Notes: generated from the letters alone by a model not told the origin. Positions 8,312 through 48,989 are shown, counted from the first letter of the stretch. The stretch: 64,000 nt of DNA from Bdellovibrionales bacterium (GCA_018266295.1 JAFEAQ010000011.1:186001-250000), one strand, 5' to 3'. Numbers and translations: made by a program.

Positions 8312-10175
8312 GCATCGCGTGAAACCAAGCCCCTATTTCAGTCGCATTCAAACCCTTTCGAAGCTCGTTCTGCGTCGCCGAGGTTTTTGGCTCCGCACCC
8401 TGCTTTGCTGGGTGATCGGCATCATGGCTCTGTCGAGCGATGAGGGGAACTCCTATGACCAACGCTTCAATTTGCGGGGTGATCAACCGGCGTCTTCGCA
8501 AATCGTTCTGATCACCATCAAACAATCTGATTTTGCCTCAATCTACGAGAAGCGCACGAACTCCATTCAAAACGTCGCGGAACTCACCGACATCACCGAC
8601 AGCTTCTTCTGGAATAAAGAGATCTGGACCGGCTTGCTTAAAAAAATTCTAGAACAAGACCCACAATCCGTCGGTGTAACGCTGTATTTCGGTATCAACG
8701 TCGGCGGCGTCAGCCTCAATCGCGCCGAAGAAAAAATCTTTAAAGACCCTCGTATCGTCTGGTCAACAAGCACGAATAATTTTGAGCGCCTGTATGAGCC
8801 GCTCTTTACCAACGACAAACACGACAACATCGCGACCAATGATCTTCGCCGTGATGAAGACGGCGTTATTCGCCACATCTTCGCTCAGAGTGATGTGATT
8901 CCGCACTTGGTGGAAAAGATCACTCACAAAAAATTCCCGTCAACTCGCACCGGAGTCACTATCAACTACCGCGGGTCGTCCCGTGTGTTTACTCAGTACT
9001 CGCTCGCGGAAGTTCTCAACGAAGAAATCCCCGAGAATGCCTTCAAAAATAAAATCATCCTGATCGGTGCCGAAACCAACTCGGGACCTCAGTATCTGAC
9101 TCCGGTGGGTTCACTTTCACGGACAGAGACGCTGGCACATATTACCGATGACCTTCTTGGCAACAAGTGGATCATCCAATGGCATTTCGGGCTTTATGCG
9201 CTTTTGATGGCAGCGCTGACTCTCATCGCGGTTTTCTTGATCACGCAGTACCCGCAATCGGTGGCACTCGTATTCATGCTGTGGCTCGGCCTTTCGATTG
9301 CCGCCTTGTCGGCGTGGGTGTTTGATACATTCTATATTTGGCTTCCGGCCTACTCGCCGTCGATCTTGTTGCTGGCAACTTGGGTGATCTTTATCGGCTA
9401 CCAAGCCAACCGCATCGAGCGACTGAACTTCCGCCTGCAGCAAGAGCAAAAATACCTGCAAGAGCTTGAGCAACTAAAAAACAACTTCGTGAGTCTCATC
9501 AGCCATGACTTGAAAACGCCGATTGCAAAAATCCAAGCCATCGTCGATCGCTTGCTGACTCAGCATGAAAGCCCTGAACTGCAAGAGGACTTACGCTCTC
9601 TGCGGGCCAGTGGCGATGAGCTCAACCGCTACGTGCAATCGGTTTTGAAAGTCCTCCGTGTTGAATCACGCGACTTCAAAGTTCACAAAGAAGTGGCTGA
9701 CATCAATGAAGTCATCGAAGAGGCCATCCACCAGCTTCGTCCGCTCGCGGCTGAAAAGAACATCCGCATTCAAACCGAGCTTGAGCCGATGTTCTCGGCC
9801 GAGTTCGATACGACACTGATTAAAGAAGTGGTTGTGAACCTGATCGACAATGCGATCAAGTACACTCCGCGCAACGGCCAGATCGAGATCTTCTCGAATG
9901 AAACCGATGATTCCATTTTTGTGAAAGTAAAAGACAATGGCGAAGGGATCCGACCTGAGGATCTCGACAATGTGTGGGGTAAATTTACTCGCGGTAAAGA
10001 TCAAGATATGAAATCAAAAGGTTCCGGTCTTGGACTCTATCTCGTGAAGTACTTTATTGAACTGCACGGCGGTAAAGTGACCCTAGAGTCGAAAGTCGGC
10101 TCAGGCAGCACGGTGTCATTTACCCTGCCTTTAAGTGATGATACAAGCGATAGCTCGCAAGAGGTGATTACATGA
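8307..10175 (+). CDS. CHASE2-domain membrane sensor histidine kinase
   Basis: The protein has up to 622 residues. An N-terminal hydrophobic segment is followed by a periplasmic CHASE2 domain (about 40-275, with the DQRFNLRG and LIGAE-type motifs of that family). Three membrane helices (about 290-375), a short coiled coil and HisKA come next, with His400 in ISHDLKTP. The ATPase domain carries NLIDNAIKYTP, DNGEGI and GSGLGLYL. The first ATG has no ribosome-binding site and lies in the predicted -10 box; the in-frame GTG at 8319 may be the real start of a leaderless message. The stop overlaps the next start (ATGA), so it pairs with the regulator encoded there. Confidence 0.9.
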   Translation: MLHRVKPSPYFSRIQTLSKLVLRRRGFWLRTLLCWVIGIMALSSDEGNSYDQRFNLRGDQPASSQIVLITIKQSDFASIYEKRTNSIQNVAELTDITDSFFWNKEIWTGLLKKILEQDPQSVGVTLYFGINVGGVSLNRAEEKIFKDPRIVWSTSTNNFERLYEPLFTNDKHDNIATNDLRRDEDGVIRHIFAQSDVIPHLVEKITHKKFPSTRTGVTINYRGSSRVFTQYSLAEVLNEEIPENAFKNKIILIGAETNSGPQYLTPVGSLSRTETLAHITDDLLGNKWIIQWHFGLYALLMAALTLIAVFLITQYPQSVALVFMLWLGLSIAALSAWVFDTFYIWLPAYSPSILLLATWVIFIGYQANRIERLNFRLQQEQKYLQELEQLKNNFVSLISHDLKTPIAKIQAIVDRLLTQHESPELQEDLRSLRASGDELNRYVQSVLKVLRVESRDFKVHKEVADINEVIEEAIHQLRPLAAEKNIRIQTELEPMFSAEFDTTLIKEVVVNLIDNAIKYTPRNGQIEIFSNETDDSIFVKVKDNGEGIRPEDLDNVWGKFTRGKDQDMKSKGSGLGLYLVKYFIELHGGKVTLESKVGSGSTVSFTLPLSDDTSDSSQEVIT

Positions 10176-34140: not shown

Positions 34141-34674
34141 TCAAGCCGGGGCCCGGCGTCGGCGCGGCTGATAAGGAACAGCCCCAATAGCCTCAAGATG
34201 GTTCTGAACGACATAATCTTTGACGACAGAATAAGCTTTTCGCCACTGAACAACACGGCTCCAAGGGCGATAATCCCAGAATTTCTGTTTGAGCTCCTTG
34301 GCCTTGCGAGCCCCCGTCACTTTGAGCGCAATAATGCCTGAAATCGCGCGCATAAACGGCGCAAAGGTGTGTCTATTGCCGACTTTGATAAGGAGATGCA
34401 GATGATTCCCGACGTTAGCAAACTCATAGATCTTAATCCCATACTTCTGAGCCTGCGTGCGAACAGTTTTCTCCACCATTCTCAGATTTTTAGCGGAGCG
34501 AAGCGACCACTCCCCACGCGCAAGACTCGATCGAAGCACCACATGCATCGCATGCTTGGTACTGATGGGCCGCTTCGTCTTCGCATTGCTATTTTTAAGC
34601 AATGACCCACCAAACTGATGCATTTGCTTGATACTTTGATCCTGAAATTTCATCTGCGGACCGCGCGATTTCAT
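34141..34674 (-). CDS. Y1 (HUH) transposase-like protein, REP-associated/IS200 type
   Basis: The 177-residue protein has the Y1_Tnp layout: an N-terminal strand RPISTKHAMHVVLRSS, the metal-binding HUH motif in VGNHLHLLIKV and a downstream candidate nucleophile Tyr in KAYSVVKDYVVQNHLEA. Single-copy relatives of this type (RAYTs) often serve chromosomal REP sequences and are not mobile themselves. No IS ends are obvious. It borders an AT-rich gene and several inverted repeats, so it marks a variable site between housekeeping blocks. The start is uncertain because no good ribosome-binding site is seen. Confidence 0.7.
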   Translation of the reverse strand: MKSRGPQMKFQDQSIKQMHQFGGSLLKNSNAKTKRPISTKHAMHVVLRSSLARGEWSLRSAKNLRMVEKTVRTQAQKYGIKIYEFANVGNHLHLLIKVGNRHTFAPFMRAISGIIALKVTGARKAKELKQKFWDYRPWSRVVQWRKAYSVVKDYVVQNHLEAIGAVPYQPRRRRAPA

Positions 34675-36219: not shown

Positions 36220-37305
36220 ATGAATTCTCGCTTAACTAAACTCTCAATCGCCGCTGCAGCTTTGGCTTTCACTGCTTGTAGCAAATCTGCAGACTCTTTC
36301 TCTTTGTTGGCGGATTCATCCAGCTACAAGCAAAACGCAGTCTACACTCCACGCAAGGTAGATATCTTGTGGGTGATCGATAACTCCGGTTCAATGGAAA
36401 CTTCGCAAACAAACTTGGCGAACAACTTCCCAGCGTTTATCAATAAGTTCGTAGCAACAGGCTCAGACTTCCGTATGGCTGTAACTACGACTGATGCATA
36501 TTTGGCTCCTTACCATAAAGCCAACCAACCAACAGTGTTCGACTACAAAGACTATTCTTTGATCCGTGATGGTGCCGGCTCAACTCACTCAGGTGTGTTT
36601 GTGATCGACCCTAGCACTCCAAACATTTCTGATGTTTTCTTGAAAAATATTAAGCAAGGTATCAACGGCTCTGGTGACGAGCGTGCGTTCTCTAGCTTCG
36701 AAGCGACTTTGTCAGATGCTCGCAACTCTGCATTCCGTCGTCCAGATGCTTTCTTGGCGGTGATCGTTGTTTCTGACGAAGATGACTTTTCTCACAACGA
36801 TAATACAAACGGTATGAATACATACAACTTCATGGAGAACTACAACGATCCTACAATGTATTCAATCCAACACTATATGGATTTCCTCACAAACTTCACA
36901 GCCGCAGCTGGCGCAAGCAAAAACTTCTCTGTGAACTCTATCAGCATCGTCGACAGCACTTGCTTGAACAAGTTGCAAAACGGTGCGCAGAAGATCGGTC
37001 AGCGCTATATGGCTTTGGCTAGCGCAAGTGGCGGTAAAGCAACAAGCCTTTGCAATGACTTCTCTGACAGTTTGAAAGTTTTGGCTGATGCGATCGTCGA
37101 TCTTTCAAGTGAATTTAAGCTCACACGTGAACCAATCGAATCAACAATCGTAGTCACAGTGAACGGCGTAACCGTTCCTAATGATGCGACGAACGGTTGG
37201 ACTTACAATGCTTCTGCGATCTCTATTTCCTTCCATGGAAGTGCAGTTCCAGCAGCAGGTGCAGATGTTCGCATTAACTTTGATCCAAAAGGTGTAAAAA
37301 ACTAA
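36220..37305 (+). CDS. Lipoprotein with von Willebrand factor A domain
   Basis: The start is ATG 36220, with GGAGG six bases upstream. The 361-residue product has a lipoprotein-type signal ending AFTAC, with Phe at -3 instead of Leu. The VWA domain (about residues 45-280) has a MIDAS motif in WVIDNSGSM, a Thr in VTTTDAY and VVSDEDDF as third metal site. A small beta-domain ends the protein. VWA domains mediate metal-dependent protein contacts. As first gene of the operon with a TolQR motor, it could be an envelope adhesion or assembly component. M. xanthus gliding genes do not, to my memory, begin with such a gene. Confidence 0.82.
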   Translation: MNSRLTKLSIAAAALAFTACSKSADSFSLLADSSSYKQNAVYTPRKVDILWVIDNSGSMETSQTNLANNFPAFINKFVATGSDFRMAVTTTDAYLAPYHKANQPTVFDYKDYSLIRDGAGSTHSGVFVIDPSTPNISDVFLKNIKQGINGSGDERAFSSFEATLSDARNSAFRRPDAFLAVIVVSDEDDFSHNDNTNGMNTYNFMENYNDPTMYSIQHYMDFLTNFTAAAGASKNFSVNSISIVDSTCLNKLQNGAQKIGQRYMALASASGGKATSLCNDFSDSLKVLADAIVDLSSEFKLTREPIESTIVVTVNGVTVPNDATNGWTYNASAISISFHGSAVPAAGADVRINFDPKGVKN

Positions 37306-37315
37306 GGGGAATTAA

Positions 37316-37897
37316 ATGAGCACACAGCAGGCAGCAAATTTTAGTCATCATGAATGGTACATCCTTCGCGGTGAAATGAAGTACGGTCCTTACGAGTACA
37401 GTGCGCTCATTCACATGATTCAAACAGGCGAGCTCTACGATTATAACTACGTATGGGCTCCGCACATGGAAAGCTGGATGTTACTGGGCGACATCAACGA
37501 GTTTTCTAAAGACAGACTAGCCCGTCTCATCCAGACACAGGACCATTTGTCAGGTGCTTTCATCAAGCGTGGTTCTCCACGTATTGATGTTGATATCGAC
37601 ATCTACGCTCACAATAATGCCAATTTCTTCGACGGAAAATGTACATCTATCAGCGATAACGGTGCGTTGTTGCTTTTAAACGATCCCTTGCTGCTACCAG
37701 GCCAGGAAATCGTGATTCATTTCCGCGGAAATGGCTCTAATAACCCTACAGGTTTTAATGTAAAAGCCGAAGTTATTAGAAAGAACTTCACTAAGCAAAG
37801 AATTAACGTCAAATCCGGTTTGCATTACGCTGTTCGTTTCCTCCAAGTGCAAAAGTCCGGACAAGACCAGATTAAGAATATGTTATTAAAAAAGTAA
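37316..37897 (+). CDS. GYF-PilZ fusion protein
   Basis: The 193-residue cytoplasmic protein has an N-terminal GYF_2-like domain (residues about 14-62: WYILRGEMKYGPYEYSAL, then YVWAPHMESWMLLGDI). A PilZ domain follows (about 80-190) with an RxxxR element in KRGSPRIDVD and SISDNG in place of the usual D/N-x-S-x-x-G. PilZ domains bind c-di-GMP, though the changed first position may weaken binding. GYF domains bind proline-rich peptides, which also occur in the AgmX-tail protein of this operon. It may connect c-di-GMP levels to the gliding motor. Confidence 0.8.
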   Translation: MSTQQAANFSHHEWYILRGEMKYGPYEYSALIHMIQTGELYDYNYVWAPHMESWMLLGDINEFSKDRLARLIQTQDHLSGAFIKRGSPRIDVDIDIYAHNNANFFDGKCTSISDNGALLLLNDPLLLPGQEIVIHFRGNGSNNPTGFNVKAEVIRKNFTKQRINVKSGLHYAVRFLQVQKSGQDQIKNMLLKK

Positions 37898-37912
37898 TCG
37901 GAGGAAACGTAT

Positions 37913-38629
37913 ATGCAGGGCTTTTTAAACTTTATCAATGATGCAGGTGTCGTAGGTTGGATTATCCTTCTTACGGGTGTGGGTTCTATGGTGCTCGTAT
38001 TCGAGCGCGCTAAAACTCTTTATTTCTCTTACGGCATGAACGTTGATGACTTCATGGCGAAAACACAAAATCTCGTTTTGGCTAAAAAACTCGACGAAGC
38101 TCTTTTGATGTGCGCGCAAATGGAATCAAAACCAATGGCTCGCGCTTTCAAAACAATCCTCGAGAAAGCGGACCGCGACGATGAAACGATCTTCCAAGCT
38201 CATGACATCGCGATGTCTGAGAACGTTCCTTTGTACACTAAACGCCTTCACTACCTTTCAATGTTAGCCAACGTTGCTACATTGCTCGGTCTTTTGGGTA
38301 CTATCCACGGTTTGATCTTGTCGTTCCAAGCGGTTGCACAAGCTGACCCAGCGATGAAACAACAATTGTTGGCACATGGTATCTCTGTATCTATGTATAC
38401 AACAGCTTTGGGTCTCGCAGTTGCGATCCCAGCAATGGTGTTCTTCTCATTCTTGACTTCTCGTCAAAATCAATTGATCGAGCAAATCTCTGAGAAGTGC
38501 TCTAAGTTGACAGAGTTGCTGACTAGCTCGCACATTCCTACTTTGAACCGTCAAACTGTATTCCCAGACCAAGTTGCAGCGCCAAAAGCCGGCACAACTC
38601 CGCCATCTTCTGGTGTGAAAGCTTCTTAG
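37913..38629 (+). CDS. TolQ/ExbB/MotA-family proton channel (AglR-like)
   Basis: The 238-residue protein has three membrane helices (about 13-32, 115-140, 160-182). The conserved channel segments are ANVATLLGLLGTIHGLILSF and HGISVSMYTTALGLAVAIPAMVFF. In M. xanthus the related AglR forms the stator of the gliding motor with two TolR-like proteins. Here two TolR-like genes follow as well. GGAGG precedes the ATG. A strong hairpin separates it from the next gene and may raise its level relative to the TolR subunits. Confidence 0.92.
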   Translation: MQGFLNFINDAGVVGWIILLTGVGSMVLVFERAKTLYFSYGMNVDDFMAKTQNLVLAKKLDEALLMCAQMESKPMARAFKTILEKADRDDETIFQAHDIAMSENVPLYTKRLHYLSMLANVATLLGLLGTIHGLILSFQAVAQADPAMKQQLLAHGISVSMYTTALGLAVAIPAMVFFSFLTSRQNQLIEQISEKCSKLTELLTSSHIPTLNRQTVFPDQVAAPKAGTTPPSSGVKAS

Positions 38630-38648
38630 TTAAAGCTTTGGTAAATCT

Positions 38649-38691
38649 CGACAGGCAGGACTCCTTGGGCTGGAGTCCTTAGCCTGAGTCG
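38649..38691 (+). repeat. Hairpin between the TolQ- and TolR-like genes
   Basis: Three stacked arms: CGAC/GTCG, AGGC/GCCT and GGACTCC/GGAGTCC, with loop TTGGGCT. No T-run follows, so it is probably a processing or stability hairpin that protects the upstream message. Confidence 0.6.
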
Positions 38692-38716
38692 ACAGTTCTA
38701 GAAGTGGAGAATATTT

Positions 38717-39268
38717 ATGAGACGCGGTAAGAAAATTAGAATTAATCATGAATACGAATTCGAATTGGACTTAGCGCCATTGCTTGCCGTGATGGTAAAA
38801 CTTGTTCCGGTTCTTCTCGTATCTTCTGCTTTCGTTCAAATGATGACAATTGAAACTCAATTGCCACAGGTCGTTCAACAAGCGATTGAAAAGAATGAAA
38901 AAGATGAAAAAGCCACTCATATCTCGATCGAAGTGAAAGAGAAAGAGGGCGTAAAAATCGTCGTTAAACACAATGACGGCAAAGAGAGCAGCGAAGTGGT
39001 ACCTAAGAAATCTGACGGTACTTATGATTTCGCTTTGCTTCACACAAGACTTGTGGCTGTAAAGCAACAGAACCCAGAAGTTTTTAAAGTGGACCTCTCT
39101 CCGGATGGCAACGTTCCTTATAACGACATCGTTCGTGTAATGGATGAAGCTCGCCGTAGCCGTGACAACAATATTCGCTTCCCTATCACGGACAAGCAAA
39201 CCAACAAGGAAACTCAGACAGACTATATGTTTCCTGAGGTTACTTTCGCGAATACAATGGAGGGCTAA
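38717..39268 (+). CDS. TolR/ExbD-like protein lacking the proton-carrying Asp
   Basis: The 183-residue protein has a single membrane helix (about residues 20-42) and a periplasmic domain, the ExbD/TolR layout. It aligns without gaps to E. coli ExbD around the helix: TPFIDVMLVLL corresponds to APLLAVMVKLV here. The essential Asp (ExbD Asp25, TolR Asp23) is Ala, and a Lys appears four residues later in the helix. It probably cannot carry protons itself and may be a structural partner of the next protein. TGGAG precedes the start. Confidence 0.85.
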   Translation: MRRGKKIRINHEYEFELDLAPLLAVMVKLVPVLLVSSAFVQMMTIETQLPQVVQQAIEKNEKDEKATHISIEVKEKEGVKIVVKHNDGKESSEVVPKKSDGTYDFALLHTRLVAVKQQNPEVFKVDLSPDGNVPYNDIVRVMDEARRSRDNNIRFPITDKQTNKETQTDYMFPEVTFANTMEG

Positions 39269-39271
39269 GCC

Positions 39272-39769
39272 ATGGCAAGACGTAAATACGAACTGCCAAA
39301 ACAAAAGAACTCGTTTGGTCTGAACATCACGTCTATGACGGATATGTTCACGATCCTCCTCGTGTTCCTCCTGCAATCTTATTCGACTTCAGATGTGGAG
39401 CTAATCCCAGAAGCCGGCTTAAGACTGCCGTCCTCGAATACAATGACCAACCCGGTTGAATCCATTAAACTGACGGTTTCTAAAGAGTTGGTAAAACTTG
39501 ATAAAACAAAAATCGCTGACATGAAAGATGCTAACTTCGAGTCAAAAGACATCGACCCGAATGACAGCAACTTCGTTAAGCCGATTTTTGATGAACTCGA
39601 TAAAATCGCTAAAGATGAAAAATTGAAAGATAACCCAGCCGTTAAAGAAGGACGTATTTTGTTGCAAGCGGATGCTGCTCTTCCTTACTCAGTATTGAGA
39701 AAGGTTATGTATACCGCTTCGATGGCCGGTTTTCCGCAGATGAAATTAGTGACTGTTGTCGGAAACTAG
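39272..39769 (+). CDS. TolR/ExbD-like protein with intact channel Asp
   Basis: The 165-residue protein has one membrane helix (residues about 17-37) in NITSMTDMFTILLVFLLQS, which keeps the Asp needed for proton flow. A periplasmic domain follows with the typical PEAGLRLP segment after the helix and RILLQADAALPYSVL near the C-terminus. It lies three bases after the Asp-less paralogue. The pair matches M. xanthus AglQ and AglS, two TolR-like proteins that work with AglR in gliding. Confidence 0.9.
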   Translation: MARRKYELPKQKNSFGLNITSMTDMFTILLVFLLQSYSTSDVELIPEAGLRLPSSNTMTNPVESIKLTVSKELVKLDKTKIADMKDANFESKDIDPNDSNFVKPIFDELDKIAKDEKLKDNPAVKEGRILLQADAALPYSVLRKVMYTASMAGFPQMKLVTVVGN

Positions 39770-39781
39770 TCGGAGATTTTT

Positions 39782-42700
39782 ATGAGCTCACGTATGTTCT
39801 GGATCCTTCTTGCTTCATTGGTAGTTGCTCAACCATCATTCGCGAAAAAGGACGAAGGCAAAGGCCTTCTTCCTGAAGTTCGCATTGGTGAAGGTGGCAG
39901 CGAAACTGAAAATGACAAAAAAGCTTTGACTTCAGAGATTCTCATCACTCGTTCAGAAAACAAAGCGATCGAATCCCTGCAAAAGCTTATTAAAAGCAAA
40001 AAGCCAGGCAGCCCTGAGAATGCGGACCTATTGTACCGCCTTGCTGAGCTCTATATGCGCAGATCTAAATCGGGCCGCTTCTTCGACATGAACGCGAACA
40101 ACCCTGTTCTGCAAAAAAGTTCATTCCCAATTCCAAATGAACACGGCTCAGACGCCGTGAAACGTGCTATTGCTATTTATACTCGCTTGGAAAAAGAGCA
40201 TCCGAACTTCCGCGATATGGATGCTGTTCTCTTCAACAATGCGTTTGCACACCAGCAAATTGGTAAGGGTACAGAGGCTTCTGTGCTCTTTAACCGTTTG
40301 GTGGATAAGTTCCCTAAATCTCCTCTGATCGCCGATGGTACGTTGGCACTCGGGGAACTTTTGTATGATCAAGGTAAATTCCAGCCAGCGTTGGAACAAT
40401 TCCTTAAAATTGAAAAAATGCCTAAATCCCGCGTTTACTCTTACGGTTTGTATAAAGCTGCTTGGGCTTACTACAACCTCAAAGATTCAGACAACGGTAT
40501 TAAACGTCTTTTGATGGTGGTAAAAACAAATCCGCCACTTCAAGAAGGTGAAGTTCCAACAAACCGTCACAACCTCCGCAAAGAAGCTTTACGTGATTTG
40601 ACGATCTTCGTTGGTGACTCCTACCCTGCTGACAAACTCTATGCTTTCTTCGAAAAAATCACTCAGAATAACGAGCTCGGTCCTGCAATGATCGATCTTG
40701 CAAAACTCTATGAATCTCATAGCCGTCAAAAGGAAATGGGAATCTTCTTGGGTGAGTTTATCGATAAAAATCCTTCAAATCCTTACTTGGTGAAAGCGAA
40801 CCTTTACCTTGTAGATGCCTATGAAGACCTCAAACAACGTGATAAAGTGATCTCTCACCTTCAAGCAGCTAGCGAGCTTTGCAAATCGAACTCTGCTTGG
40901 AGATCTACTCAAAAGCCAGAAGACGCGGCTGAGTATTGCGATAAGGACTTCCGCCATAATTCTCTCGACATCGCTAAAAAGTGGTGGGAAATCTGGATGA
41001 AGAACAAGCAAAACGTTGCGTTCTCAGATCTCACACAAAAGTCTTTCCGTTTGATCCTCGATAACGAAGATCAATCTAAACCAGATGTGAAAACTCACTT
41101 TGCCCTTGCGGAGCTTCTCTTCCAATTGGGCAAATACGATGAAGCAAGCCAAGAATACAAATTCGTTGGTGACCGCGCTCAAGAGCCAACTCTTCAGCAC
41201 GACGCTAACTATGGCGCTTTGTATGCGATCGAAAAGTCTATGGAGAAATCCAAAGAAAAAGATCCAGCTAAGGAAGCTCTTCGTAAAGAACTCGCTACCA
41301 ACTACTTAACGAAACATCCAAACGGTAAATACGCTTTGAATGTTCGCTTTAAGATGGGCCATATCGCTTACGAGGAAAACAACTTCCCAGAAGCAGAAAA
41401 ATGGTTGAGCCAAATTGCTGGTTCGAACAAAGACCCAGAATTGAAGAAAAAAGCCGAAGACTTGATGCTTGATATGCTCAACATGAAGAAAGACTATGCT
41501 GGTTTGCAAAAGCTTTCTAAAAAAATCATCGCTTCAGGTGCTAACGATGACCGCAAAAAATCTATGAATAAAATCATGGAAGAGTCTAGCTTTGCAGAGA
41601 TTCAAGAAGTCGCTAAAGGTGCAGACCCAATTATGGCTGCCCGTAAGTTGATTGACTTCTCTAAAGAGCATGAGACCTCTCCAATGGCTAAAGATGCTTT
41701 GTGGCAGGCTCTCAGCTTGCTCTATGCTAACGGCCGTCAATTTGAGGCTGCAGAATTGAGCCTTCAGTACGCTAAGAAATATCCTACAGACAAAAAGACT
41801 GTGGATGGCTTAAAGGATGCTGCTCGTTCTTATGCTGAAATCGGTCAGCTGACAAAAGCCGCTGAGACTTTGAAAATGATTGCTGAGATGGACAAGAAAA
41901 CTGCTAAAACCAATATTGAATTGGCTGCAGACTTCCTCCGTCTTGAAGGCCGCATCAAAGAATCACGCGACATCTATGTTACGTTGATGAAAGATGCAGA
42001 TAAAAAGAACCAAGCTCGTTTGATCTTAAAAATCATGGCGACTTACGGTGGTAAAACAAACAATCCAGAATACCAAAATCTTCAAGAGAAGATCTTGGCT
42101 ATCAATATGGAGCCCTATGCAACGCAAATCCTTATGGAGCGTGCAGAGAAACTCTATAGTACTGGTAAGAAAACGGCTGCTTTCGACGCTGCTAAAAAGA
42201 TCATGGGCCGCGGTATTACTGCGGAAGAAAAAGCCCCTGCTCGTTTGATCCAAGCTCAGGTTTTGGAATCTGAATTGGTTCAACAAAGCGTGAAAGCTAA
42301 AATGGATAAGTTTGCAATGGTTCTCGGTCTTAAAACTGAGAAGCTCGATAAAGCACAACAAGCTTACTTGAACGTCCTTTCTATGTCTAAAGACGAAAAG
42401 GTTGTTCGTAAAGCTTTGGCGGGCCTTGATCGTTGTTATGCAAACTACATTGATAGCTTGCAAAATATCCCTATGCCTGGCGGTTTGACTCCTGCTGAAA
42501 AAGACACTTTGAAAGGTGAACTCGCTAAGATCGTAACGCCTATTCAAGGCAAAAAAGCCGAGAACGAAACACGCTTGAAAACATTGGTTGTTGTTCGCGC
42601 AACAACTGACAGTAAAGACCGCGACTACTCAGAGATGAATCCAGAAGGAACGATTGCGCCTTCGGCTTCCTACCCTCCAGCAAGTCAGTTTGAAGCGTAC

Positions 42701-43498
42701 TTGACTGCGAAGACTGATTTGAGTCCGTCACGCGTACAGAAAAACCAGACTAAAGTTTGCTCTCGCTCTTTCACTACGAAAGATGCGAAGATCCAATCTA
42801 TCTTGGATATGGCGAATAACTGCTATGTCTCAAAACAGTACGATATGACCGAGAAGTTGGCTTTAGAACTAGCTAAATTCAAAGATACGCGTGCATTAGG
42901 TCTGTATTACTTGAGCTTGGCTTCAGATGTTCGTGAACAGCGCGAAAAAGCAATGTGGCTCATTGATGAACTCATGAAGACTCAAAGTGAGAACGCACTG
43001 GTACTGTATCAGAAGGGCCGTCTCATGTATGAGCTCGAAGATATCAATGCGGCGATTCCGTTTTTTGCCAAAGTTGTAGACATGAATATAGGTTCGGCAG
43101 AAATTTCAACTTTCGCTGCCGTAAAAGCATACACTGAAAAAGATTACATCACTTCTACGGAGAATTTCTCGCGGCTGACTCAGGACCAGGTGTATACTTA
43201 CAACATGGGACCTTTGTTCAGTGAAGCGTGGGCACAGCGCGGAGAAGCGGAGAAAGGTATTCAGTTAATCACCGAATTATCCGTTAAGAAAAAGGACAAT
43301 GTAGACATAATGTTACAACAGGCCCACTTGATTGAGGTCTATAAGTCATCTGATATCGGTACGGCTAAGCAAGTGTACGAAAGAGTTGCTAAAGTCACAT
43401 CGAAACCAGATTTAAAAGAATGGGTTGGTAAGAAATTAACAATCCTGAAGGGACAGATTCCGAACCAAGGTAAGGTAACGTCCCTGGAGAAAGAATAA
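39782..43498 (+). CDS. Large periplasmic TPR protein of the gliding cluster
   Basis: The 1238-residue protein has a signal peptide (residues 1-20, ending PSFA) and is filled with TPR-like helical repeats, for example ADLLYRLAELYMRRSK, AVLFNNAFAHQQIGKG and FALAELLFQLGKYDEASQEY. Large TPR proteins of this kind (AgmK/GltI type) belong to the M. xanthus gliding machinery and are thought to span the periplasm. Codon use strongly favours GCT, CGT, TCT and AAA, suggesting high expression. The role is inferred from layout and neighbours. Confidence 0.85.
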   Translation: MSSRMFWILLASLVVAQPSFAKKDEGKGLLPEVRIGEGGSETENDKKALTSEILITRSENKAIESLQKLIKSKKPGSPENADLLYRLAELYMRRSKSGRFFDMNANNPVLQKSSFPIPNEHGSDAVKRAIAIYTRLEKEHPNFRDMDAVLFNNAFAHQQIGKGTEASVLFNRLVDKFPKSPLIADGTLALGELLYDQGKFQPALEQFLKIEKMPKSRVYSYGLYKAAWAYYNLKDSDNGIKRLLMVVKTNPPLQEGEVPTNRHNLRKEALRDLTIFVGDSYPADKLYAFFEKITQNNELGPAMIDLAKLYESHSRQKEMGIFLGEFIDKNPSNPYLVKANLYLVDAYEDLKQRDKVISHLQAASELCKSNSAWRSTQKPEDAAEYCDKDFRHNSLDIAKKWWEIWMKNKQNVAFSDLTQKSFRLILDNEDQSKPDVKTHFALAELLFQLGKYDEASQEYKFVGDRAQEPTLQHDANYGALYAIEKSMEKSKEKDPAKEALRKELATNYLTKHPNGKYALNVRFKMGHIAYEENNFPEAEKWLSQIAGSNKDPELKKKAEDLMLDMLNMKKDYAGLQKLSKKIIASGANDDRKKSMNKIMEESSFAEIQEVAKGADPIMAARKLIDFSKEHETSPMAKDALWQALSLLYANGRQFEAAELSLQYAKKYPTDKKTVDGLKDAARSYAEIGQLTKAAETLKMIAEMDKKTAKTNIELAADFLRLEGRIKESRDIYVTLMKDADKKNQARLILKIMATYGGKTNNPEYQNLQEKILAINMEPYATQILMERAEKLYSTGKKTAAFDAAKKIMGRGITAEEKAPARLIQAQVLESELVQQSVKAKMDKFAMVLGLKTEKLDKAQQAYLNVLSMSKDEKVVRKALAGLDRCYANYIDSLQNIPMPGGLTPAEKDTLKGELAKIVTPIQGKKAENETRLKTLVVVRATTDSKDRDYSEMNPEGTIAPSASYPPASQFEAYLTAKTDLSPSRVQKNQTKVCSRSFTTKDAKIQSILDMANNCYVSKQYDMTEKLALELAKFKDTRALGLYYLSLASDVREQREKAMWLIDELMKTQSENALVLYQKGRLMYELEDINAAIPFFAKVVDMNIGSAEISTFAAVKAYTEKDYITSTENFSRLTQDQVYTYNMGPLFSEAWAQRGEAEKGIQLITELSVKKKDNVDIMLQQAHLIEVYKSSDIGTAKQVYERVAKVTSKPDLKEWVGKKLTILKGQIPNQGKVTSLEKE

Positions 43499-43586
43499 GT
43501 TTTTAGTTCGAAAATTATAATAGTACGTTGATCTAATAATTGAGTCGCTCTGCTAGTAATTCCGAAGACTTGTTATGGAGGAACAG

Positions 43587-43829
43587 TTGAAAACATTAAT
43601 CGTAGGATTAATTGTTGTCTTAGGAATGGTTACTACGGCAGAGGCGAAACAAAAGGTTACTCGTAAAGTCCAAGAGGTTAATTTCGGTGAAATGAACCTC
43701 AAAGGGACGATTCGTAATCCTGATGGCGCCTACCTTGTACAGAAGAAAGGGATTAAATTCCTTCCGCTGTACGATATCCAAAAAGATATGGATAGCCGCA
43801 TCCGCGAATCGAGCCTTTACCTGAGATAG
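43587..43829 (+). CDS. Small exported protein of the gliding cluster
   Basis: I place the start at TTG 43587, because GGAGG lies five bases upstream of it; the earlier ATG at 43575 has no ribosome-binding site. The 80-residue product has a signal peptide (about 1-20, ending TAEA) and a basic mature part of 60 residues with VNFGEMNLKGTIRNPDGAYL. I do not recognise a family. Short exported proteins are common in such operons, and it may be an accessory of the TPR or TonB-like proteins around it. Confidence 0.75.
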   Translation: MKTLIVGLIVVLGMVTTAEAKQKVTRKVQEVNFGEMNLKGTIRNPDGAYLVQKKGIKFLPLYDIQKDMDSRIRESSLYLR

Positions 43830-43878
43830 TTTAGTCAACCACACATTGACTAGAGATTTAAGACTTTACGGGGTACGT

Positions 43879-45330
43879 ATGAACAACACTTTAATCGTTA
43901 AACAACGTCTTAAGAACGGAACTACCAAGACATGGAAGCTTCGTTCGTCACAGTCAGTCTACACGTTTGGTGGATCAAGACTCGCTGACGTCATCTCCAT
44001 CTCCCCTACTTCACAGGGCATGCAAGGTACTTTCGAGTGCCGTGATGGTAAATGGTGGTATATCGACATGAACATGGATGCAGTCGCATCTATGAACTCG
44101 TGTGAAGTCGCTATTGATGGAGAAAAGACTCTCGAGATCGCTGACTCTACTCTTCACTTAACCCCCGTGTTGAGAGAAGCCGATCTCTATCAACGCCTTG
44201 AAAGAGCTTCGCATGAAAATGACGGCACTAAAAAACCTTATCAGCTTTTCCTCGTGAAATTGCATGACAAGGTTATTGAGACCCGCGTAGTTCCTATGGG
44301 TCAAAGCTTTATTCCTGAAATGGCTGTCACTAAAAAGGTTATCCCTGCGAAGGATTCAAGCTCTTGGGTTCAATACACTTTGGATCAATACATCGTTCGT
44401 CAAAAAACCGTTTTCTTGACTGCAGAAGAAGCAATGAATCGCATTACTGCAAGTCAAATGGTTGATGGCGACAGCAAAAAGGGTCTCTTGATCGTCGGCC
44501 TTGCGGCTTTGATGATCGGCGGCCTCACTTTGATGTCTCCTAAGAAGGAAGAAGTTGCTCAGGTAGTGATTCCTCCTCCTGCGCAAAAAGTGATTGTTAA
44601 AACAGATAAAAAGAAAAAAGTTGCTCAGGCAAAACCTGCACAACCTCAGCAAGCCCCTTCTGCTCCGAAAGAGCAAAAGGTTGCTAGCGCTCCAGCTGGT
44701 AATGGCAAAATCGCCAACATGTTGAAAGCGGTTTCTGACCCCCGCCTGTCTCGTTTGATCGGTAAAGTATCCGCTCAAGCTGCAAAAAGCGGTAACGTGA
44801 TTGTTTCTAACGGTGTGAAAGCCGGCGCTGGTGCCAGTGGTCGTGCCTTGGCTGCTGTTGGTAACATCGACCGCTCTGGCCGTGACTACGGTACAGACTC
44901 TACAGCTCAAGGTGTGATGATCTCCACTGCGGGCCGTGGTGGCGGTAAGAACACTTCTGGTATCGGTGGCCTCGGCGCAGGTAACACTGGTAACGGGGGC
45001 GTTGGTTTGATCGAGGAAGAAAGTGAAATTGTCGGCGGTCTCGACCGCGAAGTGATCGCTCAGTACATCAAGTCCCAATTGGGTCAGATCTTGTACTGCT
45101 ATGAGCGCCAACTCAGTGCTCACCCAGATTTGTTTGGTAAGGTAGCTGTTAAATTTACTATTGCTGGAACTGGATCGGTAGAAACACAGGCCATTGGTGA
45201 TACCACACTTAAAAATGCGACCGTCGAAGGATGTATCTTGAATAAGGTTGCTAAATGGAAGTTCCCTGCCCCAGCCGGAGGGACGAAAGTGCTCGTCACT
45301 TATCCATTCTTATTCAAGAGTACTAACTAA
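43879..45330 (+). CDS. AgmX/PglI-tail (TonB-like) gliding protein
   Basis: I use ATG 43879 rather than the in-frame TTG 43846. The 483-residue protein has an FHA-like N-terminal region (about 1-110), one membrane helix (LLIVGLAALMIGGLTLMS, about 205-222) and a Pro/Lys/Ala/Gln linker. A Gly-rich stretch follows, then a C-terminal domain of the AgmX/PglI type: ILYCYERQLSAHPDLFGKV, VEGCILNKVAKWKFPAPAGG and VTYPFLF. Such tails act like TonB, moving force from the inner-membrane motor to outer components. Known relatives are GltG and GltJ of M. xanthus. Confidence 0.88.
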   Translation: MNNTLIVKQRLKNGTTKTWKLRSSQSVYTFGGSRLADVISISPTSQGMQGTFECRDGKWWYIDMNMDAVASMNSCEVAIDGEKTLEIADSTLHLTPVLREADLYQRLERASHENDGTKKPYQLFLVKLHDKVIETRVVPMGQSFIPEMAVTKKVIPAKDSSSWVQYTLDQYIVRQKTVFLTAEEAMNRITASQMVDGDSKKGLLIVGLAALMIGGLTLMSPKKEEVAQVVIPPPAQKVIVKTDKKKKVAQAKPAQPQQAPSAPKEQKVASAPAGNGKIANMLKAVSDPRLSRLIGKVSAQAAKSGNVIVSNGVKAGAGASGRALAAVGNIDRSGRDYGTDSTAQGVMISTAGRGGGKNTSGIGGLGAGNTGNGGVGLIEEESEIVGGLDREVIAQYIKSQLGQILYCYERQLSAHPDLFGKVAVKFTIAGTGSVETQAIGDTTLKNATVEGCILNKVAKWKFPAPAGGTKVLVTYPFLFKSTN

Positions 45331-45348
45331 GACGGAGGAACTAAAATC

Positions 45349-46122
45349 ATGAAAACTCTCACGCTCACGTTGATGCTATTAGGGAGTTCCTTAGCATACG
45401 CACAAACAACCGCCCCTGCTGCTCCTAAAGCGGCCGCTCCTGCTAACTCAGGCAGCGACAAGCTTGATATTAAAAAGCTTGAGCAAAAATATTGGTCTGC
45501 AAAAGACGACGACTTCGCAGTCGTACAGAACCGCCGCTATACAAAAGCCGGCCGTTTCTTCTTGAGCGCCAACGGTGGTGTTCCATTCAATGACCCATTC
45601 TCTTCAGGTAATATCTATGGTGGTACTTTCGGTTACTTCTTCAACGAACGTTGGGGTATCGATGTAGACTATAAATCTGGCAGCTTGCATGATAATGATG
45701 CAACTTCGCAGTTCATCAATCAATATGGTACTTACCCAGACCATAACGTATTTAAATCTTCAATGATCGCTTCTGTGACGCTGGTTCCGTTCTACGCAAA
45801 AATGAGCTTCATGGATAATTCAATCATTTACTTCGACATGGGCTTCTCACTTGGCGCCGGTACTTTGGCTTACGTTGTTAAGCAAAAAGAAGGCGATTTG
45901 AACGAGAACGCAGCCGTTGCAAAACTCTCTGTATTCCAGCAGATCTTCTTCACAGAGCACTTCGCTTTGAGAGCAGATCTTTCAAATACATGGGCCAATG
46001 AAAAACGCATGAAATACTACACACCTGGTGACGCGCAACATGGTTACTCTGGTGACCGTGATCTCGGCACTAAAATGACCAACGATACTTCACTTTTGTT
46101 AGGTGTGACTTACTGGTTCTAA
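45349..46122 (+). CDS. Outer-membrane beta-barrel protein of the gliding cluster
   Basis: The 257-residue protein has a signal peptide (ending AYAQT), an Ala/Pro-rich start of the mature chain and then alternating strands of an eight-to-ten-strand barrel, ending LLLGVTYWF with terminal Phe, as in outer-membrane proteins. It resembles the myxobacterial outer-membrane beta-barrel domain group. In M. xanthus, GltA and GltB barrels form the outer part of the gliding complex. GGAGG precedes the ATG. Confidence 0.85.
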   Translation: MKTLTLTLMLLGSSLAYAQTTAPAAPKAAAPANSGSDKLDIKKLEQKYWSAKDDDFAVVQNRRYTKAGRFFLSANGGVPFNDPFSSGNIYGGTFGYFFNERWGIDVDYKSGSLHDNDATSQFINQYGTYPDHNVFKSSMIASVTLVPFYAKMSFMDNSIIYFDMGFSLGAGTLAYVVKQKEGDLNENAAVAKLSVFQQIFFTEHFALRADLSNTWANEKRMKYYTPGDAQHGYSGDRDLGTKMTNDTSLLLGVTYWF

Positions 46123-46178
46123 GGATTCTAGGTAGCTGTAAACGTTATTTCTAATTCTGAGCTACTTTAGGGGGACGT

Positions 46179-48254
46179 ATGAAGACAAATAAAATGGTAC
46201 TAGCTTTATTGGCCGCGAGCGTGTCTGCAGGGACTACGGCTCATGCGCAAAAAGCAAAAACGTACATGAAAAGTAGTAACGTCCCTGCTTACAATCTCGT
46301 TAAAGCAAAAAAAACAAACGAAGTTCCTCGTTTGACCATTGGCGCTGAAAGAGAAGTCACGGCGAACATTAAGCCTTTGAACCTCCCGGAAGCAGGTCAA
46401 GTGAACCTCACTCCTGTTTCTAGAAAAGCTTCAGCTCCCGTTTTGCAATTTCCAATGGACTACGGCAAAATCCTTCCGGCAGAAGCTGCAAAGGCTGTGA
46501 CTGGTAAAAATGCTATTGCCAACGTTCCAGAGCTCAAGGTTCTGAACGAAGTTGGCGAACCTAATCTTGAAACAGTGGAAGCAAAACCTGCATTGCAACC
46601 AATGATCGAGATGCAACCTAACGATTACAAAATGCTTCAAGCTTTGATCTTCCTTGAATACCAAAAAAACTACGAATTGGCTCTAGGCCTTTTCTCTGAG
46701 TTGATGGAAGACCCTGAATATCGCACAGAAGCTTGGTACAACTATGCTTTGACTGCAAAGGGCCTCGGTATCAACTCTGAGTTCCGTATGGGGATGATCA
46801 AAGTTGCGACGGATGCAAAATCTAAAGAATGGCAGGAAAAAGCTGTTCACAACCTGATTGATAATATCGGTATCCTCAAAGTATCTGACGTAAAATACAT
46901 TGATCCATTGATTACTAAATATGACATCGACACTACTCAGAACGAAACATACCAAATGTACCGCGCTAAATACTATCTTGAAGCCGGTCAGTTGGGCCAA
47001 GTTGAAGATGCTTTGATCTTCATTGGTGAAAAATCTAAAAACTATCCTGAAGCGACAATGATCAGCGCTCTTTCTCTTTACCGCCAAGGTAAAGTAGATG
47101 ATGCAATCATGACTTTGAACCGCTTGATGGAAATCACTGATGGCGACAGAAAAGGCACTATCCGTAACGTAGGCGCTTTGACTCTCGGCCGCATGTACTT
47201 CCAAAAAGGTGCTTACAAAGACTCGTTCCAGGCATACTTGAAAGTCGACAAGACAAACCCTATGTGGTTACAAGCAATGACTGAGCAAGCTTGGACACAG
47301 ATCATGGCTGAAGACTATGAAGGTGCTTCTGGTAACATGTTCTCATTGCACACAGACTTCTTTAAAAACGCCTTTGCTCCAGAGTCTTACACAGTTCGCA
47401 CTGTGGGTTACTTGAACCTTTGCCAATACGGTGACGGTATCCAGGTATTGACTGAAATGAAAAAGAAGTTTGGTCCTTTAAAGACAAAACTCTCTGCTTA
47501 CCAGGCGGCAAACGACAAGGCTCCTCTCCACTACTATGACACAATCAAAACGTGGATGAAGAACAGTGATCGTAAGGAAGTTGATGGCATCCCACGCGCC
47601 TTCATCGTCGAAATGGCCCGCCATCCTTCATTCACAGTTCCACAAACTGAGATCAACACAACTGAAGACGAAATTGCTCGCTTCAACAAAGTCACTTTGA
47701 CATTGCTTGAGCGTGAAAAATCAACAATGAAAAAAGCCAACGAAGCCGGCAAAGAAATCAGCGAGATCCGTAAAAAGTTGATTGATAACAAGAAATCAAC
47801 ATCTTTGACGGAAGCTTTGGCTAAAGCTGAGAAACGCCAAATGAGCTTCAAGATCCAGCAATTCATCGCTCAAAAAGCTCGTACATCTATCAAAAAACTC
47901 CGTGAAATGGGTATCGCCCGCATGGAGAAAGAAAAAGCTGATCTTCGCATGGAAGCCGGCAATGCATTGAAAAACCGTATGACTCAATTGGCAGGCGGTT
48001 TGAATCGCGTGCTTGAGCAAAATGAAGTGCTTGCTTACGAACTTTACTCTGGCGCCGGTGAACACATCCGCTATCAAATGGCTGGTGGTGAAATCACCGA
48101 GAAGGAACGTCCGGAATTGAAAGTTGAAGCTAAAAAGAGCCTCAACTGGAAATTCCAGGGTGAAATCTGGGAGGACGAAGTGGGTCACTACCGCTCTTCT
48201 CTCAAGAACGTATGCCCTCAGGACGACAAAGTAACTAGCTTGGATCAAAACTAA
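46179..48254 (+). CDS. Periplasmic TPR protein of the gliding cluster (AglT/GltE-like)
   Basis: The 691-residue protein has a signal peptide (ending THAQ), a region without clear fold (25-150) and TPR repeats (about 155-420: FLEYQKNYELALGLFSELM, LSLYRQGKVDDAIMTLNRLM, RMYFQKGAYKDSFQAYLKV). A helical, Lys/Glu-rich C-terminal part has NVCPQDD near the end. AglT/GltE of M. xanthus is a TPR protein of the gliding complex, and this is the best candidate here; that name is inferred from context only. GGGGG precedes the ATG. Confidence 0.83.
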   Translation: MKTNKMVLALLAASVSAGTTAHAQKAKTYMKSSNVPAYNLVKAKKTNEVPRLTIGAEREVTANIKPLNLPEAGQVNLTPVSRKASAPVLQFPMDYGKILPAEAAKAVTGKNAIANVPELKVLNEVGEPNLETVEAKPALQPMIEMQPNDYKMLQALIFLEYQKNYELALGLFSELMEDPEYRTEAWYNYALTAKGLGINSEFRMGMIKVATDAKSKEWQEKAVHNLIDNIGILKVSDVKYIDPLITKYDIDTTQNETYQMYRAKYYLEAGQLGQVEDALIFIGEKSKNYPEATMISALSLYRQGKVDDAIMTLNRLMEITDGDRKGTIRNVGALTLGRMYFQKGAYKDSFQAYLKVDKTNPMWLQAMTEQAWTQIMAEDYEGASGNMFSLHTDFFKNAFAPESYTVRTVGYLNLCQYGDGIQVLTEMKKKFGPLKTKLSAYQAANDKAPLHYYDTIKTWMKNSDRKEVDGIPRAFIVEMARHPSFTVPQTEINTTEDEIARFNKVTLTLLEREKSTMKKANEAGKEISEIRKKLIDNKKSTSLTEALAKAEKRQMSFKIQQFIAQKARTSIKKLREMGIARMEKEKADLRMEAGNALKNRMTQLAGGLNRVLEQNEVLAYELYSGAGEHIRYQMAGGEITEKERPELKVEAKKSLNWKFQGEIWEDEVGHYRSSLKNVCPQDDKVTSLDQN

Positions 48255-48266
48255 AAGGAGACGACC

Positions 48267-48935
48267 ATGAAGAACGTAATGAAATCCAACAAATTAATCG
48301 TGAGCTTCCTGATTGGCGGCTCTTTGGTAATGGGCCTCACTGCTTCTGCTGAAACAACAGCAAAAGAAGGTTTGGCTAAGATTAAGTCTAACGTAGACAA
48401 CTCAAAGGCCAATTTGGGCGAATATAAGCGCAATTTGGGCACCGTTGATAAAAACATCGGTGAAATTCAAAAGGCAAAATCTCAAGTCGATGAACAACGT
48501 AAAGCTGTTCAAGCTTCTTATGAAGAAAATAAAAAGTCGATGATCAAAGTTGACGCTCAAGAGAAGGAAATCCAAGGCTTGATCGCTGATGAGAAAAACA
48601 AAAAAGCTCAGGAAGAAAAGAAACTTCAAGAGCTTCAAGCGATGGCTCAGAAGCTTCAAGAAAATATCGCAAAACGTGATGCAAATATCACGGATTACGA
48701 GACTCAATTGAGCTCAGTCCAGGAAGAAAAGAAAATCTGGGCGTCTCGTGGCGACCAAATCAAGCAACAAGGCGCGCTTGTAGACCAGCGCACTCGTTCT
48801 TTGGCAACATCTGAGAACGATTGGAAGAACAAGAAAAAAGGCTACGAAGCTGAAGTGAACCGTTGGACTAAAGAAGTTGACCGCCAGCAGAAACTCCAAG
48901 ACAATTATACTTCATTAACAGAAGTGAGAGACTAA
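48267..48935 (+). CDS. Periplasmic coiled-coil protein, last gene of the gliding operon
   Basis: The 222-residue protein has a signal peptide (residues about 1-28, ending ASAE), followed by an almost continuous coiled coil rich in Lys, Gln and Glu (residues 35-215). It resembles other periplasmic rod-like proteins. It starts 12 bases after the TPR gene, with AAGGAG upstream, and ends at a strong terminator. A rod of about 190 residues could bridge a large part of the periplasm. No known family is recognised. Confidence 0.8.
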   Translation: MKNVMKSNKLIVSFLIGGSLVMGLTASAETTAKEGLAKIKSNVDNSKANLGEYKRNLGTVDKNIGEIQKAKSQVDEQRKAVQASYEENKKSMIKVDAQEKEIQGLIADEKNKKAQEEKKLQELQAMAQKLQENIAKRDANITDYETQLSSVQEEKKIWASRGDQIKQQGALVDQRTRSLATSENDWKNKKKGYEAEVNRWTKEVDRQQKLQDNYTSLTEVRD

Positions 48936-48964: not shown

Positions 48965-48989
48965 GCTCTCCTTCGGGAGGGCTTTTTTT
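48965..48989 (+). terminator. Intrinsic terminator of the gliding operon
   Basis: A seven-pair stem closes on a UUCG tetraloop (CTCC TTCG GGAG core) and seven Ts follow. The 3' arm (GGGAGGGC) is also the only candidate ribosome-binding site of the next gene, whose ATG starts at 48990. Confidence 0.9.

Follow-up and report, generated by a model that had tools for sequence, protein, structure and literature searches.

PilZ proteins that act on MotA-type stators are known, YcgR and MotI being cases in point. Gliding in Myxococcus xanthus uses the VWA lipoproteins CglB and CglD (PMC4488436, PMC13104615), and the axle subunits AglQ and AglS of its motor have each been described with a conserved mid-membrane Asp, rotation models needing two alternating sites (PMC9389320). 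For Bdellovibrio bacteriovorus HD100, four gliding-type operons have been published, Bd1473–Bd1483 among them, and these sister clusters are unlike in expression: Bd0412–0420 in early predation, with Bd0828–0838, Bd1473–1483 and Bd2368–2377 upregulated in host-independent growth (PMC2797640). GltH, GltI, GltJ and GltK have been reported absent from Bdellovibrio, and Luciano et al. favour Bd0828–0838 as the gliding motor (PMC3169522); proteomics points to Bd2368–2377 at prey exit (PMC12546842), and according to a 2026 review it is still a major challenge to identify the motor, the adhesin and the route of force on which Bdellovibrio gliding relies (PMC13104615). MglA is dispensable for Bdellovibrio gliding (PMC3983030) and Bd0367 (DgcA) is needed for gliding exit; in 2012 Bd1482, a PilZ gene placed first in one of the gliding operons (at its 5′ end), was proposed as a c-di-GMP target for gliding and as a candidate receiver of DgcA signals (PMC3271064).

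We analysed a window of 64,000 nt from the 4.22-Mb genome of a Bdellovibrionales bacterium, in which an operon of this type occupies positions 36220–48935. A preliminary description of this DNA had listed ten genes running in one direction, and all ten co-directional ORFs (+ strand) were confirmed at the coordinates it gave, tightly packed with spacings of mostly a few to ∼90 bases; an eleventh gene, encoding a GltF-like secreted protein at 43587–43829, had been overlooked, and the start of the GltG-like gene, placed at 43846, was corrected to 43879. The kinds of protein that it named were borne out by Pfam (GYF_2 and PilZ in gene 2, MotA_ExbB in gene 3, ExbD in genes 4 and 5, and TPR in genes 6 and 9 of the original ten) and by NCBIfam, where the AgmX/PglI C-terminal domain of the TonB-like protein and the OMP_myx_plus match of the barrel both exceeded their cut-offs. 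The last gene (48267–48935, +) specifies a secreted coiled-coil protein, recognized by eye from its signal sequence and coiled coil, and is syntenic in relatives. Just 3′ of it lies a terminator-like hairpin with a T run (48966–48988, +), the product of a pattern scan that was at chance level overall, albeit in a fitting position. As for a riboswitch 5′ of the operon, no Rfam match was found anywhere in the 64,000-nt window. Upstream, at 34141–34674 (− strand), there is a gene that by eye resembles that of a REP-associated tyrosine transposase (RAYT).

The operon is the full-length syntenic orthologue of HD100 Bd1473–Bd1483. In the relative genome that we take to be B. bacteriovorus HD100, all ten main genes are found in identical order, on the minus strand at 1.39–1.41 Mb. 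Published locus tags agree with this (Bd1483, MIDAS gliding-cluster protein; Bd1482, 5′-end PilZ; Bd1481, aglR; Bd1480, aglQ), and the eleven tags of Bd1473–1483 agree with the GltF-like gene as the eleventh member. Within the genus-level group, VWA orthologues are ∼50–56 % identical and GYF-PilZ orthologues ∼65 %. Because synteny extends to HD100 and to many more family genomes, the operon is real and lies well past chance.

The preliminary description had likened the core to Myxococcus gliding genes, and this held, as an Agl/Glt-type machine was found whose family profiles match the M. xanthus glt and agl clusters. The GltG profile matched GltG homologues of M. xanthus (1.5e-46 at best), and matches were also obtained for TolQ (3.9e-44), the GltC-like protein (1.2e-33) and TolR2 (4.7e-27); the profile of the periplasmic, GltD-like TPR protein (39782–43498, +) matched a 1286-aa TPR protein of M. 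xanthus (1.8e-76) and a second cluster in its own genome (2.8e-84). An AglR-like TolQ gene lies together with two TolR-like AglQ/AglS genes, and of the core transducers GltD-, GltG- and GltC-like proteins were found, whilst a separate GltE could not be told apart from the TPR proteins. The GltG-like protein (43879–45330, +) consists of a cytoplasmic N-terminus, one transmembrane segment, a Pro/Lys-rich linker and an AgmX/PglI C-terminal domain (105 bits, cut-off 40); it scores below the cut-off for GltG (NF033760; 7.9e-40, 137 bits against 650) and above that of NF033768. The GltC-like TPR protein (46179–48254, +) is likewise below its cut-off (NF033756; 5.2e-29, 101 bits against 450), and the outer-membrane β-barrel (45349–46122, +) passes that of OMP_myx_plus (TIGR04565; 74 bits, cut-off 60). 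Judged by these scores, the GltG- and GltC-like proteins are homologues and not equivalogs. Moreover, the layout of GltJ, in which a zinc finger and a GYF domain are fused to a transmembrane segment and an AgmX tail, does not recur, the GYF domain here being fused to PilZ with no transmembrane segment; the C-terminus of the GltG-like protein is weakly like GltJ. Nor is the conserved transmembrane Asp present in both axle subunits, as TolR1 has Ala24. This is thus a machine homologous to the Myxococcus apparatus in which several defining details fail.

The only large gap in the operon (43499–43878) contains the additional gene (43587–43829, +), which has a TTG start and specifies a secreted protein of 80 aa. 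A counterpart is present at the same place in 11 of 11 relatives checked, with the conserved motif VQEVNFxEMxLKGTIRNPDGAYLVQKxGIKFxPL. Its profile matches the ORF beside M. xanthus gltG (6e-6), as well as a further cluster of M. xanthus (4e-8) and one of the sister clusters of its own genome (2e-6), and the protein is therefore GltF-like, so that a GltF-type component also belongs to the set found here.

At the front of the operon, the VWA lipoprotein (36220–37305, +; Bd1483 orthologue) is a candidate surface adhesin in which the MIDAS motif DNSGS (DxSxS) and the lipobox Cys20 are intact and invariant across 17 family members. NCBIfam places it near the MIDAS adhesin (68 bits, cut-off 700) and CglD (31 bits, cut-off 400), with no match to CglB; from these scores it is related to the VWA region of CglD, and is not an equivalog. 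We also considered the protein as a CglB orthologue and rejected this, given the lack of a CglB match and the weakness of that to CglD. When the PDB was searched by sequence with the profile of the VWA protein, only designed α-repeat proteins matched, over short stretches, and these were disregarded. For Bd1483, structure and surface secretome have been reported, and a clean deletion showed normal predation in liquid (PMC11003981); a transposon mutant was reduced in biofilm predation (PMC2277423). The claim that a VWA lipoprotein falls outside the Myxococcus set is wrong as regards kind, since CglB and CglD have VWA domains and are encoded elsewhere (PMC4488436); relatives of the VWA protein do occur in myxobacteria, although none was seen in a motor operon in 16 genomes. 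In the window's own genome, a VWA lipoprotein gene is the last gene of two of the three other Glt-type clusters (L012 and L014), which makes genes of the adhesin type recurrent companions of these motors; no VWA gene was present in the stretch examined of the third, L013.

The second gene (37316–37897, +; Bd1482 orthologue) encodes a protein with a GYF domain at residues 14–63 (GYF_2, 1.1e-9, 38.3 bits, cut-off 25.8) and a PilZ domain at 84–190 (1.7e-10). Its only PDB match was the GYF domain of GltJ/AgmX (7z3c; E-value 2.6e-4 with a profile), which suggests that the GltJ regulatory domain persists in Bdellovibrio in fusion with PilZ. A partner for this domain may be encoded by the next gene (37913–38629, +; Bd1481 orthologue), specifying the TolQ/AglR-like motor subunit (MotA_ExbB 1.4e-26; Foldseek to E. 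coli TolAQR 4.6e-6), as this TolQ carries ∼33 extra C-terminal residues (38528–38626, +), a proline-rich tail ending in TTPPSSGVKAS; in HD100 the tail reads SVTPPSPGQKVS. The TolQ model folds like E. coli TolQ, with residues 208–238 disordered (pLDDT <50). Across the order, PP occurs within the last 30 residues in 64 of the 83 TolQs that have an adjacent GYF-PilZ gene (counting as linked L018, whose TolQ ORF is over-extended), the 19 without it belonging mostly to one clade. No tail of the PPxx..KxS form was found in 17 paralogous TolQs, three from the window's own genome, or ∼20 myxobacterial TolQs. In one relative (G007) the GYF-PilZ gene is lost and TolQ ends in TELLTSHH with no tail, and the PP motif is also missing from a clade (G156, G289, G073, G218) whose GYF-PilZ gene has diverged or is lacking. 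The TolQ tree implies ∼8 losses of PP: one accompanied loss of the gene (G007), one fell in the clade just named, three affected lineages whose GYF residues have changed, two left other prolines in place and one (G201) is unexplained. In one family (f9, L178–L195), TolQ tails without PP are encoded next to a GYF-PilZ gene and have IKTV or KAV conserved at their end.

Since the tail is gone where the GYF-PilZ gene was lost, the GYF domain probably docks on the TolQ tail. Four GYF positions (17, 34, 36 and 47), picked post hoc, separate PP from non-PP genomes (61/2 versus 2/17), but PilZ columns differ between these genomes as well and clade effects account for much of the correlation with the GYF pocket, which therefore counted for little. 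A linked AlphaFold2 model of GYF-PilZ and TolQ (same frame with the stop read as Gly) showed no docking and left the tail disordered, with pLDDT not above that of TolQ alone; built from only six sequences and with a short linker, it is weak evidence. It is unlikely, whilst far from negligible, that GYF-PilZ is instead a localization adaptor for another partner, such as the cytoplasmic part of GltG or a polar hub (e.g. RomR/CdgA), with the tail serving an unrelated role. The nearest GYF domain is that of GltJ, which in M. xanthus acts as an effector of MglA (PMC12288465); this is in keeping with such a partner, as are eight TolQs that keep PP with no GYF-PilZ gene beside them (several in genomes with the gene elsewhere) and the terminal residues KxS, KTV or KAV, which are retained even where PP is lost. 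The joint loss of tail and gene in G007, together with the tailless paralogues that have no cluster GYF-PilZ, argues instead for the tail as the docking site.

The axle subunits TolR1 (38717–39268, +; AglQ-like, Bd1480 orthologue; ExbD 5.4e-20) and TolR2 (39272–39769, +; AglS-like; ExbD 2.8e-12) differ at the position of the conserved transmembrane Asp. TolR2 has the canonical transmembrane Asp. TolR1 reads FE-L-D18-L-A-P-L-L-A24, the family pattern being E-x-N-x-x-P-x-L-D, such that Asp (codon 38768–38770) stands where Asn is canonical, six residues before the usual Asp site, and Ala (codon 38786–38788) stands at the conserved transmembrane Asp. The swap is reciprocal across the order: in 103 window-type motors TolR1 has exactly one of the two Asp sites, never both and never neither (one further sequence was mis-parsed): 76 have Asp at −6 with Ala, Ser or Gly at the Asp site, 26 have Asn with Asp, and one has Ser with Asp. 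The TolR2 Asp is kept in all parsed window-type motors, five of them read by eye. HD100 Bd1480, annotated aglQ, is of the D....A form, and the other motors of the window's own genome as well as both M. xanthus motors examined have Asp in both TolR subunits. By the TolQ tree, the swap happened one to about three times; TolQ residues also differ between the two TolR1 classes, inseparably from clade effects. No report of the swap was found in the literature searched, which does not by itself prove novelty. We tentatively propose, as a possibility that we rate below even, an asymmetric 5 : 2 motor in which TolR2 keeps the proton Asp and that of TolR1 sits ∼1.7 turns nearer the cytoplasm, with a cyclic-dinucleotide adaptor, held on the TolQ tail by its GYF domain, as the gate. 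The displaced carboxylate bears on all TolQR, ExbBD and MotAB motors, for which alternation between two equivalent Asp sites is assumed (PMC9389320), and such an asymmetric motor, if real, would put models of that kind to a natural test.

Taking the operon as a whole, we lean slightly towards an Agl/Glt machine with nucleotide-switched engagement. A TolQ pentamer around a heteromeric TolR1/TolR2 axle would turn proton flow into movement, and the GltG-like TonB-type arm with the GltD-, GltF- and GltC-like periplasmic parts would pass force to the outer-membrane barrel, the MIDAS/VWA lipoprotein acting as the putative surface or outer-membrane adhesin. GYF-PilZ would be the cytoplasmic adaptor, its GYF domain resting on the proline-rich TolQ tail and its PilZ domain sensing a cyclic dinucleotide, either c-di-GMP or cGAMP, the latter a product of Bd0367/DgcA; the bound nucleotide would then switch motor engagement, as for YcgR and MotI at MotA stators, and the protein would stand in for the MglA/GltJ input of M. 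xanthus. Several observations speak against this explanation: the case made by others for different clusters (Bd0828–0838 as gliding motor, PMC3169522; Bd2368–2377 at prey exit, PMC12546842), the PilZ motif SxSxxG, the 19 linked TolQs without PP, the eight unlinked ones with it, the disordered tail of the linked model, normal liquid predation without bd1483 (PMC11003981), and the lack of a VWA gene in the operon of two relatives (G003 and G008). No gliding assay of this operon, including deletion of bd1482 or bd1483, was found in the literature searched. The operon unites a motor and a transducer with candidates for the adhesin and the second-messenger receptor in one transcription unit, and it yields a specific residue-level prediction of the route from signal to motor.

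The published data fit a surface-motility machine under cyclic-dinucleotide rather than MglA control, and are also compatible with a role in transport. The operon might accordingly encode a related trans-envelope transporter or a mover of surface polymer (like Nfs in Myxococcus sporulation) for host-independent or biofilm life, with a sister cluster driving gliding; we find this doubtful, with a real chance of being correct. The authors who recorded the differing expression of the four sister clusters call a TonB-like transport role possible (PMC2797640), the preference of Luciano et al. for Bd0828–0838 (PMC3169522) points the same way, and in the tree it is the TolQ of L013, not that of the window, which pairs with a myxobacterial TolQ. 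What weighs against transport is that bd1480, like bd3099, is surface-induced in dependence on the gliding regulator Bd0367 (PMC9140294), that transposon insertions in Bd1481 (aglR) and in the VWA gene Bd1483 impair biofilm predation (PMC2277423), and that a MIDAS adhesin gene lies within the operon.

Rather improbable is the view that PilZ no longer senses nucleotide and that GYF-PilZ serves the motor as a constitutive structural subunit. In most family members the second PilZ motif is SxSxxG in place of the usual (D/N)xSxxG, as this view would have it; however, RxxxR is intact and invariant across the family, the second motif keeps its Ser and Gly, and several genomes again have N where the motif varies. 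The predicted PilZ model resembles c-di-GMP-bound PilZ, MotI and YcgR folds, and c-di-GMP/cGAMP control of Bdellovibrio gliding has been published (PMC9140294, PMC3271064). As the preliminary description had suggested, the GYF-PilZ gene is best read in terms of second-messenger control.

Of 61 family genomes, 55 have the VWA gene next to the GYF-PilZ gene; those that do not are G002, G003, G007, G008, G009 and G025. Other families within the order have a double-GYF-PilZ gene directly 5′ of TolQ, with a VWA gene between them in several. One complete 2.7-Mb family genome (G002; C1:880000–895000) has kept a GYF-PilZ, 36 % identical, as an orphan adaptor, with no TolQ of the window type and no front-type VWA gene. 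The GYF-PilZ profile found nothing in 16 myxobacterial genomes, in all of which the TolQ profile was positive (16/16), so that the refuting condition named in the preliminary description, both front genes in myxobacterial gliding clusters, turned out in its favour as regards GYF-PilZ; because of this absence the gene marks a Bdellovibrionales variant. The suggestion of a variant machine stands to that extent, the front end itself being family-wide in Bdellovibrionaceae and already published. That the front end is new to science, for which the myxobacterial absence might be cited, is almost certainly wrong, with the genes present in nearly all Bdellovibrionaceae and Bd1482 and Bd1483 discussed in print (PMC3271064, PMC2277423, PMC11003981). 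The operon is a known one for which messenger control has been proposed; what appears to be unreported is the TolQ tail as a likely docking site, the link to a GltJ-type GYF domain and the displaced TolR1 carboxylate, and the overlooked GltF-like gene also looks new.

Compared with HD100 Bd1473–Bd1483, nothing essential differs in the window, apart from sequence divergence. HD100 has a second pair at 3.008 Mb that fits Bd3100 (PilZ) and Bd3099 (VWA), where a double-GYF-PilZ gene is followed by a VWA lipoprotein gene, a pairing of the kinds present in the window; unlike in the window, no such motor genes were found alongside it in Bdellovibrionaceae, whilst in sister families the Bd3100-type double-GYF-PilZ gene adjoins TolQ. 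A stand-alone pair of this type is present in nearly every family genome, and in the window's own at 9611–11448 of contig C19 (L077). The Bdellovibrio MIDAS adhesin Bd0875 (NF052240) shares with the VWA protein a lipobox, a MIDAS VWA and a split β domain (PMC11003981); in contrast to Bd0875, the window-type protein has no cap region and falls far short of the cut-off of that family, and Bd1483 is dispensable for prey invasion (PMC11003981). As with YcgR and MotI, a PilZ protein with a matching fold is proposed to work on a stator of the MotA family; those proteins make direct PilZ–MotA contacts, whereas here the GYF domain is predicted to dock on a C-terminal peptide. Finally, the M. xanthus Agl/Glt machinery resembles the window in its motor of TolQ and two TolRs, its GltD-, GltF-, GltG- and GltC-like and barrel parts and its VWA type of lipoprotein, but is encoded at three loci rather than in one operon, has its GYF domain in the TonB-type arm rather than fused to PilZ, and retains the transmembrane Asp that TolR1 of the window does not have.
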